Source: Allostella sp. ATCC 35155 (lineage in GTDB: Bacteria > Pseudomonadota > Alphaproteobacteria > ATCC43930 > Allostellaceae). From it: a stretch of 64,000 nt of DNA. This document shows positions 10,187 through 15,032 of this stretch, in pieces (the first letter of the stretch is position 1; every line of letters starts with the position of its first letter). The translations under genes and the position numbers were made by a program. The notes beneath the pieces were generated by a model. The model had not been told where the DNA came from. It worked only from the letters and a program-made list of their open reading frames with translations, and did no database searches. The stretch is from the NCBI GenBank assembly GCA_006738865.1, contig AP019701.1, positions 4,785,974 through 4,849,973 of the forward strand. Reading direction: 5' to 3'.

Positions 10187-13100
10187 GTGGACGCTCCGAG
10201 CCGAAGCGCGACCCCGCTCTTCGACGCGACCTACTATCGCGGACAGCTCGACCGCCGCCCGGCGACGGCGATCGAGGACGGCGAGCTTCTCGCCCACTAT
10301 CGCGGCACGGGCTGGCGCCAGGGGCTCGACCCGCATCCGCTCTTCAGCACGCGCCACTATCTCGCACAGGCTGGCGGCATCGACGCGGCCGGCACCGACC
10401 CGCTGACGCATTTCCAGCTTGAGGGCGCGGCGGCCGGGCTGTCGTTCCATCCCTGCTTCGACCTGGCGCACTACCGCAGCCAGGCGGGGATGGGCAGAGC
10501 GGTCGAGAACCCCCTCCTCCACTATCTTACCGAGGGGGCGGCACTCGGGCTGTCGCCGTGCGAGATCTTCGACGCCGCCCACTATCGCAGCCTGACGGAG
10601 GGCGACCCGGCGGCCGCGCGCGATCCCTTGTCCCACTACCTGGCGTCGGGCTGGCGGCAGGGGCTCTCCTTCCACCCCTATTTCGATCCGGCCTGGTACA
10701 TGGCCCAGCCCGGCTCGGGTGCGCGCAGCCCCGTGCCGCTGATCGACTTCCTGCTCGCGCCGCCCGGCCGGCGCAACGCGCCGCAGGCCTTCGCCGATCC
10801 ACCCGAGGCGCGACGCTGGCGGGCAGCCGGCCTCTGCCCGCATGTCGAGTTGATGGCCGGCGCGCTCGACCGGCCGGACGGACAGTTGAACGGGCTGCGG
10901 TCGGAGGGCTGGTACGCCCGCGACGGCGGCTCGGCACGCGCCTACTTGGCGGGGCGGCGGCGGCACCGCGAGCGCGGTCGGCGGCGCATCATCTTCGTCG
11001 GCCACGATGCGGGTCGCGCCGGGGCGCAAATGATCCTGCTGCGCCTCATCGAGCATGCCGCCGCAAGCGGCTTGGTCGAGCCCTTCGTGATTCTTGCGGC
11101 CGGCGGACCGCTGACCGACGCCTATGCCCGGGCCGGGCACCTGATGCTGCCGCGCCCCGGCGAGAAGGCGGAGGCGGTGGTGCGGCGGCTGCTCGACCGT
11201 CTCGCCGACGAGCCGCCGGCCGGGGTCGTCGTCAGCACCGTCGTCATTCCGGACTATGTCGCTGCCTTTGCTGGCGCCGGTCACCCGCCCGACGTCCTGG
11301 TGCACGAGACGGCCGACATGTATCCGGTCGAGACTCAGAGCGCGATTGCGCAGCAGGCCCGTCGCCTGATCTTCGGATCGCGGGACACCGAGGCCCGCTT
11401 CCGGCGCCGGGTTCCGGGGGTCTATGGGGGCGAGGTGCTCTATACCGGCACCACCCTGACCGCGAAGGCGATGCCCGAGCCGGACGGCGAGCCGGTCGTC
11501 ATCGGCTGCGGCACCGTGACGTGGCGCAAGGGCGTCGATCGCTTCCTCGACGTCGCGCGGCGGACGCTGGCGATCGTCGGCGACGAGATCCCCGTCCGCT
11601 TCCGCTGGATCGGCGCACGGGTCCCGATCGGCGATGCCGGCGCCGATTTCTGGGCCGAGTACGACGCCGACCGCCTCGGGCTCGGCGACCGCTTCGGATT
11701 GCTCGACGAGGTGGAGGACACCGCCCCCCTCTATGCGGGGTCGAGCGTCATGCTGTGCACCTCCCGCGCGGATACGTTTCCGGGTGTCGTCCTCGAGGCG
11801 ATGGCGACCGGCCGGCCGGTCGTCGCCTTCGCGGACAGCGGCGGTGCGCCGGAGGCGCTGGCCGATGGAGCCGGAATCGTCGTGCCCTACGCCGATACCG
11901 GCGCCATGGCCGAGGCGCTGGCGCGCCTGTTGCGCGATCGGGAGGAGCGCCGGCGCATCGGCGAGCGGGCCCGGGCCCGGATCGCGGACCGGTTCCGCTT
12001 TGCCGACTATACCGCGGATGTCCTCCGCCCGCTCGTTCCCGGCCTCGTCGCGGCGCAGATGGAGGGCACGCCAATGCTTCCCGTCGCGTCACCGATGCCG
12101 CCGCCGACAGGCGCGCCGACGGCGGGCACCACGACCGCGCATCGGCAGGCGCCGACCGGGGACTCTCTTCTCATCGTCGTCGACGGGCGCGACGCCGAGG
12201 CGGCGCTGCTGGCGCTCAATCTGGCCGCCTTCCTGCGCCGCCGATGCCACCTGGCGATCCTGCTCTGCGACGGACGGGCCTATGCCGCCACGGCGCGGGC
12301 GGCCGCCGACATCGTCCTTTCGGCCGATGCCGGCATGCTGGCCGATGCGCGCGCCCTGGGCGAGCAGCTGGGGCGGGCGATCGACGCCTTCGCGGTGCGC
12401 CGTGCCATCCTGGTGGGCGACCTGCCGGCAATGGCGGCCGCGACATTGGCCGGCCGCTTCGTCCCCGGCGTCCTTGTGCCGATGCACATCCCCAACCCCC
12501 ACAGCTTTGCCGAGGCCGCGCTGTGGCCGCAGGCCGTGGTCGCAACGACGCCGGCTCTCGCACGCTCTCTCGCGGACATCTTTCCCAGGCGCCCGGCCGG
12601 CGACCTGCCGCTCGTGCCGGTCGGCGGCTCGAGAATCTGGACGGAGGCCGGCTCCGATCGCCGCGCCGCGGCCGATCGCCTGCGCGCCGCCATCGGCGAC
12701 GCGGGCGACCGGGCGGCCGGATTCGTCGTGCTCGGCAGTGGGCCGCCGACGCTCGACGGCGGGATCGACCTCTTCCTGCGCACCGCCGAGCGACTGGCCG
12801 GCCCGGGCGCTCCGCTCTTCGTCTGGATCTGCAGTCCCGGCACCGGCGACGGCCCGCGCTGGGTGGCGCTGCGTCGGCGCATCGCGGCGTCGTCCCGGCA
12901 TCGCCATGTCCTGCTGTGGGATTCGGCGCCGTCGCTGGAGCCGGCCTATGAAAAGGCCAGCCTGTTCCTGTCGAGCGCGCAGAGCGCGACGCTGCCACTG
13001 GCGGCCGCGGGCGCCATCGAGCGGGGGCTGCCGGTCGTCGGATTCGCCGATGGCGGCGCCCTGCCCGATCTTCTCGCAGAGGACGCGGCCGCCGCGCAGG

Positions 13101-14323
13101 GGCTGGTTCCCGCCCTCGACACGCTCGCAGCGGCCGCGCTGATCGGCCACCTCGCCCGGTCCCCGACGGCAAGAAGCTCGCTCGTCGACGGCGTGAAGCG
13201 GCTTGCGGCAAGGCTCACGGACATGGCGGCTTGGTGCGACCGGATCGACCGGCTGGCGGCCGACCGTGCTGCCGCCATCGCGGCGGAGCGGGAGGACATC
13301 GCGACGATCCTGGCGGACGCGGAGTTCGACCTGGAGGAGTATCAGGGCGATGCCGGCGCCGACCGGCCGGCCGCGGTGCTGCGCCATGTCCGCACCTGGC
13401 GCTGCGGACAGGCGGTGCGCCGCCCGGCGCCCGGAGTTCACCCGGGGCTGCTCGCCGGATCGCCCGGGATCGATCCCTATGCCGCGCATGTCCGGGCCGG
13501 GCGGCCGCCCGATCGGGGTCGGTGCATGATGATCCGCCCCGGCGAGCCTGTGGCGGCGATCCCGGAATCGCTGCGGGCGGCACTCCATATCCATCTCTAT
13601 CACGCCGACCAGGCGGAGGATCTGCTGCGCCGCGTCGCCGCGAATGCCGGCCGGTGCGACCTGATCCTCACCACCGATACCGCAGCCAAGGCGCGCACGA
13701 TTGAATGGGCGGCGGCCAGCCTGGGCGGTCGGCGGGTCCGCATCCTGCTGCTGCCCAACCGCGGGCGCGACATCGGCGCCTTCCTGACGGGTCTGGGGCC
13801 GGCGATCATCGGCGAATACGATGTCGTCGGCCACGTCCATGGGAAGAAGACCGAGCACAAGCCGCGGGACGTGGTCGAGCCGTGGCGGGAGCGGATGCTG
13901 CAGTTTCTCCTCGGCGACGCCCACCCCATGATGGACCGCATCCTCTCGGCCTTCGCGGCCGATCCGGGCCTGGGCCTCGTCATTCCGGACGATCCGCATG
14001 CGCTGGGCTGGGACATGCCGGCCTCGGGCGGCCTGCCGCCCGACCTGCGGACGAACCGGCCGGCCGCGCTGAAACTTGCCTCCCGACTTGGCTGGGACTC
14101 GCTGCCGGACACTTTCGAGTTCCCCGCCGGGGGCATGTTCTGGGCGCGCCCGGCCGCCCTGCGACCGCTGCTCGATCTCGGCCTCGCCTGGGACGACTAC
14201 CCGCCCGAGCCGGTCGAGGAGAACGCGACCATGCTCCATGCCATCGAGCGGATGTTCTGCATCGTCGCCGAGCGGACCGGGCATCGCGTGGCTGCGAGCC
14301 ACGTCGCCGGCTTTCCCCGCTGA
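10187..14323 (+). CDS. Large multidomain glycosyltransferase with RgpF-like C-terminal domain
   Basis: 1378-residue protein with GTG start 19 bp after the oxidoreductase gene. Residues 1-200 hold five tandem repeats of about 38 residues, each with F-D-x-x-[HYW]-Y (Phe at 12, 53, 91, 128, 166) preceded by DPL-HY-L-x-G. Residues about 260-620 form a GT-B/GT4 glycosyltransferase with the nucleotide-sugar motif [21 protein letters not shown] second, weaker GT-B-like half (about 660-1040) has [13 protein letters not shown]. Residues about 1080-1378 match rhamnan synthesis protein F (RgpF), with [13 protein letters not shown] and HVHGKKTEH. It probably assembles a surface polysaccharide or glycan. 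Acceptor, sugar and number of active sites are unknown; the second GT half may be inactive. Confidence 0.85.
10220..10786 (+). repeat. Five tandem ~38-codon repeats inside the glycosyltransferase
   Basis: Repeat anchors (Phe of F-D-x-x-x-Y; F-S-T-R-H-Y in the second unit) are spaced 41, 38, 37 and 38 residues. The flanking D-P-L-x-H-[YF] and G-x-x-x-G-L-x-x-x-P positions recur. The DNA of the units is not identical, so this is an old protein repeat and not recent DNA duplication. Confidence 0.8.
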
Positions 14324-14462
14324 ACGGTTGCATCCGCCCCGAGACCGCTTCCATGGCGGGCGGGCACCGCCTATATAGCGGCGATCAGAACAGCAACGAC
14401 CCGACGACGTACCCTCGAGGGCGGGGACGAACCGGGAGGCGCAACCAGAAGGAATCGGTCCG

Positions 14463-15032
14463 ATGACCCTGCCGCTGATGCCCAAGGCAACCGCCGTCTG
14501 GCTGGTCGAGAACACCGCGCTGACGTTCCAGCAGATCGCCGACTTCTGCGGGCTGCACGAGCTGGAGGTGCAGGCGATCGCCGACGGCGAGGTGGCGGCC
14601 GGGATGCAGGGTTGGGATCCGGTCGGGAACGGGCAGCTGACGCGCGAGGAGATCGCCCGCTGCGAGGCCGACCCGGCGCTGCGCCTCAAGCTCGTCAAGG
14701 CCAACATCCCGCTGCCCCAGGCCAAGGGCAAGGGGCCGCGCTACACCCCGATCAGCCGCCGGCAGGACAAGCCGAACGCCATCGCCTGGCTGATCCGCAC
14801 CCATCCGGAGCTGTCGGACGCGCAGGTCTCCAAGCTGATCGGCACGACCAAGCCGACCATCGAGAAGATCCGCGACCGCTCGCACCCGGAGACGCAGAAC
14901 ATCAAGCCGCAGCATCCGGTGACGCTGGGGCTGTGCACCCAGGTCGAACTCGATTCCGCGCTCGCCCGGGCCCAGAAGAACCGGGCGCCGAACGCACCTC
15001 GGACCGACTTCGAGGAGGAAGGGGCCTACTGA
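14463..15032 (+). CDS. trcR: Cell-cycle transcriptional regulator TrcR (DUF1013)
   Basis: 189-residue DUF1013 protein; the Caulobacter homologue is named TrcR, a cell-cycle linked transcription regulator. The N-terminal MPKATAVWLVENTALTFQQI and the central RRQDKPNAIAWLIRTHPELSD and KLIGTTKPTIEKIRDR form two helix-turn-helix-like units that are hallmarks of the family. It is highly conserved and usually single-copy in alphaproteobacteria. AAGGAA precedes the ATG. It stands alone in a 139-bp upstream gap that should carry its promoter. Confidence 0.9.
   Translation: MTLPLMPKATAVWLVENTALTFQQIADFCGLHELEVQAIADGEVAAGMQGWDPVGNGQLTREEIARCEADPALRLKLVKANIPLPQAKGKGPRYTPISRRQDKPNAIAWLIRTHPELSDAQVSKLIGTTKPTIEKIRDRSHPETQNIKPQHPVTLGLCTQVELDSALARAQKNRAPNAPRTDFEEEGAY

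Follow-up and report, generated by a model that had tools for sequence, protein, structure and literature searches.

Polymerases that carry several catalytic modules on one chain have been proven in Klebsiella O-antigen synthesis, where O12 WbbB and O7 ORF6 are each described as combining a coiled-coil spacer with more than one catalytic module, and where the N-terminal methyltransferase-kinase of ORF6-O7 terminates and its two C-terminal GT2 modules polymerise (PMC11231755). In streptococci, RgpF is reported as required for rhamnan synthesis (PMC4931226, PMC6802508), and a 2019 paper describes RgpF/SccG and its partners as not yet examined structurally or mechanistically (PMC6802508). Here, a gene from Allostella sp. 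ATCC 35155 is compared with these systems. The gene lies in a 64,000-nucleotide stretch (assembly GCA_006738865.1, contig AP019701.1, positions 4,785,974 to 4,849,973 of the forward strand; hereafter the window, to which all coordinates refer), occupies 10187..14323 on the + strand, as do all features described below unless stated, and encodes 1378 amino acids from a GTG start, a frame call that agrees with an ortholog in a congener. An original prediction had read it as a single chain joining a repeat array, an apparently active glycosyltransferase (GT) domain of family GT4, a weaker second GT-like half and an RgpF tail, and this architecture is borne out. The product is probably a very large enzyme that helps to build a cell-surface sugar chain, and its second GT half is very probably, judging from its signature residues, a pseudo-glycosyltransferase without an active site.

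As described in the sections devoted to them, WbbB, ORF6-O7 and Escherichia coli O9 WbdA-WbdD resemble the window protein in uniting several catalytic modules on a single chain, with an arm at the N-terminus, a spacer and, towards the C-terminus, two transferase modules. The modules themselves differ, being GT2 in ORF6-O7 and GT99, GT102 and GT103 in WbbB, compared to GT4 and an RgpF half here, and the sections on WbbB and ORF6-O7 mention neither helical-hairpin repeats nor a dead GT4, both of which are predicted for the window protein (PMC11231755). Set against the polymerase-terminators, the window protein has two candidate sites by sequence (the first GT4 and the RgpF half) and no terminator-like domain by Pfam; as no terminator was found and the modules differ, it was not classed among them. 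What it has in common with streptococcal RgpF, SccG and GacG is the C-terminal half of the RgpF model; the N-terminal model half is missing, and GT4 modules and repeats are fused to it.

The two GT4 domains

From N- to C-terminus, the protein consists of repeats (residues 10–201), a poorly modelled stretch, a GT4 domain (255–625; 10949..12061), a Pro/Ala/Thr-rich joint recognised in the sequence (626–649; 12062..12133), a GT-B half (650–1040; 12134..13306), a linker and an RgpF half (1126–1378). Two stretches of the protein match PF13692, the best at residues 436–584 (E 6.8e-31), and PF00534 is also matched. The first GT4, assigned from Pfam, a hidden Markov model (HMM), Foldseek and signature residues, has a GT-B fold resembling BshA and other GT4 enzymes (best Foldseek match 6n1x, BshA, E 1.1e-13), a group-1 C-terminal domain, an R/K-G motif and an E/D-x7-E/D motif. 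It retains H373-E374, WRKG at 446–449 (K448) and D529-x7-E537, which we take to be the functional residues of GT4 enzymes, with R/K-G presumably the phosphate-binding motif. With these signature residues kept, the first domain looks active, as had been predicted.

The second domain was compared with 27 core relatives, hand-chosen for covering the GT4-RgpF core out of the best 80 of 283 related loci; L062, L063 and L065, whose frames were not recovered, and RgpF-only or broken-up matches stayed outside this set. An HMM built from the GT4 domain of these relatives gives 172 bits for the first copy and 162 bits for the second, where the match to residues 659–1072 accounts for 157 bits; this places both copies in one subfamily. 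In the structure model (predicted local distance difference test 83.6, predicted template modelling score 0.80), the second half is closest among GT4 enzymes to 3mbo (BshA; Z 19.8, 344 residues, root-mean-square deviation 3.4). The GT-B fold is thus kept, but the RKG and D/E-x7-D/E motifs are not: alignment places DGG where RKG is expected (857–859), A934 and G942 at the acidic positions and MH for HE. All eight checked columns are changed (H to M, E to H, Q to V, the Arg of PQGR to Gly, the Arg and Lys of RKG to Asp and Gly, and the acidic pair to Ala and Gly), columns at which the 27 relatives have H in 26, E in 26, Q in 24, the PQGR Arg in 15, the RKG Arg in 27 and Lys in 25, and an acidic residue in 27 and 24. 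Since RKG and D/E-x7-D/E are lost here while the relatives keep them, the domain was filed as a pseudo-GT4. The original prediction had noted weaker motifs in this half and had named a full set of catalytic residues as the finding that would overturn it; those residues are gone.

It is distinctly unlikely that the second half is still active through other residues, such that three sites would add three sugars in turn. Its fold and reading frame are intact, the Arg of PQGR and an acidic residue (D) at one of the two sites survive in the second GT4 of the ortholog, the paralogs within the genus both keep the acidic pair and one of them (from the congener G001) also the His, and three-site single-chain transferases have been reported (PBCV-1 A111/114R). 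As the paralogs retain part of the signature, the decay is graded. This has to be set against the change of 8/8 columns in the window, against an RKG lysine that is Gly in all four genus copies (window, ortholog and two paralogs) and Lys in 25 of the 27 relatives, and against the position of the second GT4 as the least conserved domain between the window protein and its ortholog (46.0% identity). A pseudo-glycosyltransferase of GT-B fold is already known in VldE (4f96), which ranks 46th among the Foldseek matches to the model of the first GT4; VldE binds nucleotide (GDP complex according to the entry titles), whereas the second GT4 here has lost the residues expected to hold one, and no kinship between the two is claimed.

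The RgpF half

The C-terminal half of RgpF (residues 1126–1378; 13562..14320) was delimited by Pfam and motif alignment. PF05045 is matched at residues 1128–1363 well above its curated cut-off (E 1.5e-42; 146.4 bits, cut-off 25), but over model positions 269–500 of 503 only. The predicted RgpF tail is therefore present, as the C-terminal half of the model alone rather than both halves. Its motifs (PNRGRD, GHxHxKK, DDP and FPxGxMFW) are intact in the window and conserved in the family, with the Asn of PNRGRD in 26 of the 27 relatives and both GHxH histidines and FP-G-MFW in all 27. PF05045 itself looks like two separable domains, in that frames of ~300 amino acids among L149–L171 match either positions 1–240 or 269–503.

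The N-terminal repeat

Where five 38-residue repeats had been predicted, the array is, by HMM score, four clear copies of 37–41 residues and one partial copy. By HMM and structure model, the copies cover residues 10–50 (41 residues; 10214..10336), 51–88 (38 residues; 10337..10450), 89–125 (37 residues; 10451..10561), 126–163 (38 residues; 10562..10675) and, for the partial fifth, 164–201 (38 residues; 10676..10789), with the consensus FDPAWYLEQYPDVAAAGIDPLAHYLRAGAPEGRDP. Pairwise identity is 32–49% among copies 1–4 and 30–34% between copy 5 and the others. An HMM of 93 copies, grown from copies 1–4 of the window and including them in its training set, scores copies 1–5 at 23.1, 34.2, 32.4, 36.4 and 7.6 bits, compared to a best of 9.2 bits among 8,600 shuffled proteins (9.3 million residues). 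A model of the four copies, before any outside copy was added, already found the ortholog (best 36.3 bits), L081 (26.5 bits) and L050 (25.3 bits). The fifth copy was graded as partial because of its 7.6 bits and because, under an HMM trained without linker copies and without copy 5, it reaches 12.5 bits over model positions 1–26 of 35 only. Tandem Repeats Finder gives no array of this period in the DNA, so the repeat exists at the protein level.

A repeat fold, which the original prediction had asked of a structure model, is seen in AlphaFold as two helices per copy, forming a helical hairpin, with copies 1, 3 and 4 well modelled (block means mostly 68–88) and copies 2 and 5 at low confidence. 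A profile search of PDB sequences gave only a chance-level match (E 5.8, a cytochrome P450), and no naming of the repeat was found in the titles and abstracts of the papers listed from an open-access library, subscription journals being outside the scope of that search. Elsewhere in the host genome, a 591-residue protein consists mostly of the repeat (L029:7619-9394, strand −; eight copies >10 bits), and its neighbours resemble, by eye, sugar-nucleotide and GT2 genes; searches of this protein against Pfam (E 0.01) and NCBIfam (E 0.1) were empty. The repeat is thus modelled as a helical hairpin without a convincing match in Pfam, NCBIfam or PDB.

Relatives and distribution of the repeat

Proteins of the layout repeat-GT4-repeat-RgpF occur, among the best 80 of 283 related loci from named genomes, in Variovorax, Lamprocystis, Rhodanobacter, Pseudoroseomonas, Methylocystis, Acidisoma and others from many phyla. 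Across GT4 core, linker and RgpF half they can be aligned with residues of about 644–1378 of the window protein, and the same repeat stands beside the GT4 (ahead of it, in one or more copies, in 17 of the 27 core relatives) and between GT4 and RgpF (>10 bits in 24 of the 27). On this alignment, the second GT half of the window protein corresponds to the family's core GT4 in a decayed form. The family has one GT4 with mostly intact signatures, whereas the window protein and its ortholog have two, the second decayed, and differ further in their five-copy array, although L050 has a still longer one with eight copies. A second near-full-length GT4 was found in none of the 27 core relatives (in L037 a further match covers 33 residues at 25 bits), and three other large alphaproteobacterial frames with an RgpF C-terminal half have a single GT4 in one case and none at E 0.05 in two. 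Among the proteins examined, two GT4 copies of which the second is dead are seen only in the window protein and its ortholog; the repeat-GT4-repeat-RgpF layout is already widespread, and only the doubling and the longer array are special here. Some relatives carry methyltransferase or GT2 matches ahead of GT4-RgpF, and L037 and L051 have weak coiled-coil-type matches in that position.

Because linker copies had trained the first HMM, the linker was rechecked with an HMM rebuilt from 71 non-linker copies. Under this model, 24 of the 27 linkers score >5 bits, and 18 of the 27 score higher than any of 6,200 shuffled linker segments (maximum 11.4 bits). The corresponding place in the window protein (residues 1083–1111; 13433..13519), located by alignment with its paralog and the relatives and not by score, is degenerate: the linker scores 1.1 bits, compared to 20.5 bits in the paralog of the same genome, −2.8 bits in the ortholog and 3.0 bits in the G001 paralog. 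As most relatives and the paralog of the same genome score while the window does not, the linker copy is, by these scores, a family feature whose sequence the window has lost. A recognisable linker repeat in the window itself was dropped at this score.

Beyond the family, the repeat was present in 17 of 192 genomes in an even sample of the alphaproteobacteria. A Pfam scan covered 20 of 22 repeat-bearing alphaproteobacterial frames, from a hand-picked set; nine matched the RTX nonapeptide repeat (eight over the cut-off), three matched GT2-type transferases, four had no Pfam family at E 0.001 and four matched unrelated families. In RTX calcium-binding-repeat proteins of this group, the repeat is C-terminal in L133, L134, L144, L146, L147 and L148 and near the N-terminus in L139 and L145, and one repeat-bearing RTX protein exceeds 3000 residues and has Ig-like domains. 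A TmoB match over a repeat copy in L137 (25.6 bits, cut-off 25) was taken as chance, as no single stretch passes. A separate RgpF clade (L079, L081, L091 and L178) has repeats followed directly by RgpF, with a HAD-type hydrolase domain added by Pfam in the first three; L178 was placed in this clade by reading its sequence.

Genomic context and history within the genus

The gene starts 19 bases past a gene for a zinc-type dehydrogenase/quinone-reductase-like protein and ends 139 bases ahead of trcR, the position that had been predicted for it. Pfam identifies the ten neighbouring proteins as a thioesterase, two alpha/beta hydrolases, a Cys/Met pyridoxal-phosphate enzyme, DUF429, a HAD hydrolase, the zinc-type dehydrogenase, TrcR, a short-chain dehydrogenase and a GNAT acetyltransferase. 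None of the ten is a polysaccharide protein, also as predicted. Antisense frames of up to 880 amino acids overlap the gene (12089-14731 on the − strand, and others on other strands); such frames are expected at 72% GC and were not counted as genes.

The missing polysaccharide genes would suit an enzyme that glycosylates a protein or lipid, with the repeats recognising that acceptor. Helical repeats often bind proteins. Such a target is nonetheless unlikely, as the methyltransferase or GT2 modules of the relatives, together with RgpF, resemble O-antigen polymerase-terminators, and RgpF is reported as required for rhamnan synthesis (PMC4931226, PMC6802508).

A GC or codon-bias shift, proposed as a signal of transfer, gives little sign of a recent horizontal event in comparison with 47 other genes from our own simple gene caller (GC 0.731 compared to 0.716, standard deviation 0.025; third-position GC 0.875 compared to 0.914, standard deviation 0.024; codon distance rank 37 of 48), and recent transfer visible in composition was rejected. 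The host genome (G000; 5.34 Mb, one contig) was compared with three congeners (G001, G002 and G003). The ortholog in G001 is at the same locus with 52–53% identity (53% over residues 7–1378), compared to 67–93% for the flanking proteins in the congeners, and by domain the identity is 58.6% in the repeats, 55.0% in the first GT4, 53.0% in the linker and 60.1% in the RgpF half. In G002 and G003 the gene is absent, with both flanking genes present and about 160–190 bases between them, and the intergenic DNA of G003 aligns with the stretch past the gene in G001.

This absence from two of the four genus genomes, the rapid evolution relative to the flanking genes, the orphan position and the dead domain could describe the drifting remnant of a fused transferase that is inactive and being lost. 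That the frame of 1378 amino acids is intact in two species, that in both the first GT4 and the RgpF half retain their signature residues, and that codon use is ordinary make this fate improbable.

The species quartet weakly joins G001, which has the gene, and G003, which lacks it (79.6/77), with site patterns of 27 for (G000,G002)|(G001,G003), 22 for (G000,G001)|(G002,G003) and 15 for the third. A single gain by descent was set aside on this weak quartet; gain-plus-loss and two gains both fit. The paralog in G000 carries a GT2 domain in place of the repeats and first GT4, and is 39% identical over residues 655–1377. The stretches holding the GT2-pseudoGT4-RgpF paralogs (L028:9516-14331 in G000 and L027:8745-13602 in G001) look like surface-glycan loci, and a protein neighbouring the paralog resembles, by eye, the WbsX kind. 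In a GT4 tree, the second GT4 groups with the cores of the paralogs (100/99), apart from the first GT4, which has a branch 3.1 long and an unsure place (48/63). A recent internal duplication of the two GT4 domains was rejected on this grouping, the placement of the first being unsure. The simplest story would be that an ancestral core GT4 decayed in the genus while the proteins gained new transferases at the N-terminus, the one studied here a GT4 and the paralog a GT2.

Proposed function

On balance, we incline to the view that the gene encodes a multi-module surface-polysaccharide transferase with two working sites, a dead GT4 as scaffold, and repeats as spacer, dock or glycan grip. The first GT4, predicted to be retaining and to use a nucleoside-diphosphate-sugar donor, would be one active site. 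The second would be the RgpF half, which perhaps transfers rhamnosyl or a related sugar, and the two would take turns on a single growing chain at the inner membrane. Between them, the dead GT4 may now be a scaffold that sets the spacing of the active sites or docks them, its job having been taken over by the added N-terminal GT4 (by the added GT2 in the paralog). The N-terminal repeats, which stand where relatives have methyltransferases, coiled coils or other repeats, might serve as spacer, docking arm or glycan grip; the original prediction had suggested that they may bind the growing glycan or tether the enzyme. By analogy with the Klebsiella enzymes, polymerisation would fall to the GT4-RgpF core, and spacing, docking or finishing of the chain to the N-terminal part.

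Several observations weigh against this proposal. No polysaccharide gene occurs among the ten neighbours, and the profile search for a solved relative of the RgpF half detected none (best E 0.52). AlphaFold is unsure in copy 2 (49–64), copy 5 (about 40–67) and the stretch 215–260, the window linker scores at chance, and the tree is weakened by long branches and skewed composition. The residues still held by the second GT4 of the ortholog and by the paralogs also count here.

A wider possibility, which we regard as doubtful, is that the repeat is a glycan-gripping helical module common to the enzymes that make a surface polysaccharide and to RTX proteins that are secreted and may be retained on the same polysaccharide; the window array would then hold the growing chain, with the GT4 and RgpF sites flanking the dead GT4 scaffold. 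In Caulobacter, a helical domain of the RTX S-layer protein RsaA is reported to grip O-antigen (PMC6978808). As no kinship between that domain and the repeat was found, the case of RsaA backs only the plausibility of a glycan grip.

As the gene is either cleanly present or cleanly missing at a site with two conserved neighbours, it lends itself to testing by deletion or by transplantation, and a pseudo-glycosyltransferase kept inside a multi-module enzyme offers a way to test the need for a domain in catalysis against the need for it in spacing. The repeat connects cytoplasmic-type transferases with proteins of the RTX type, and may offer a way to learn how the makers of a polysaccharide and the proteins borne on it recognise the same chain.

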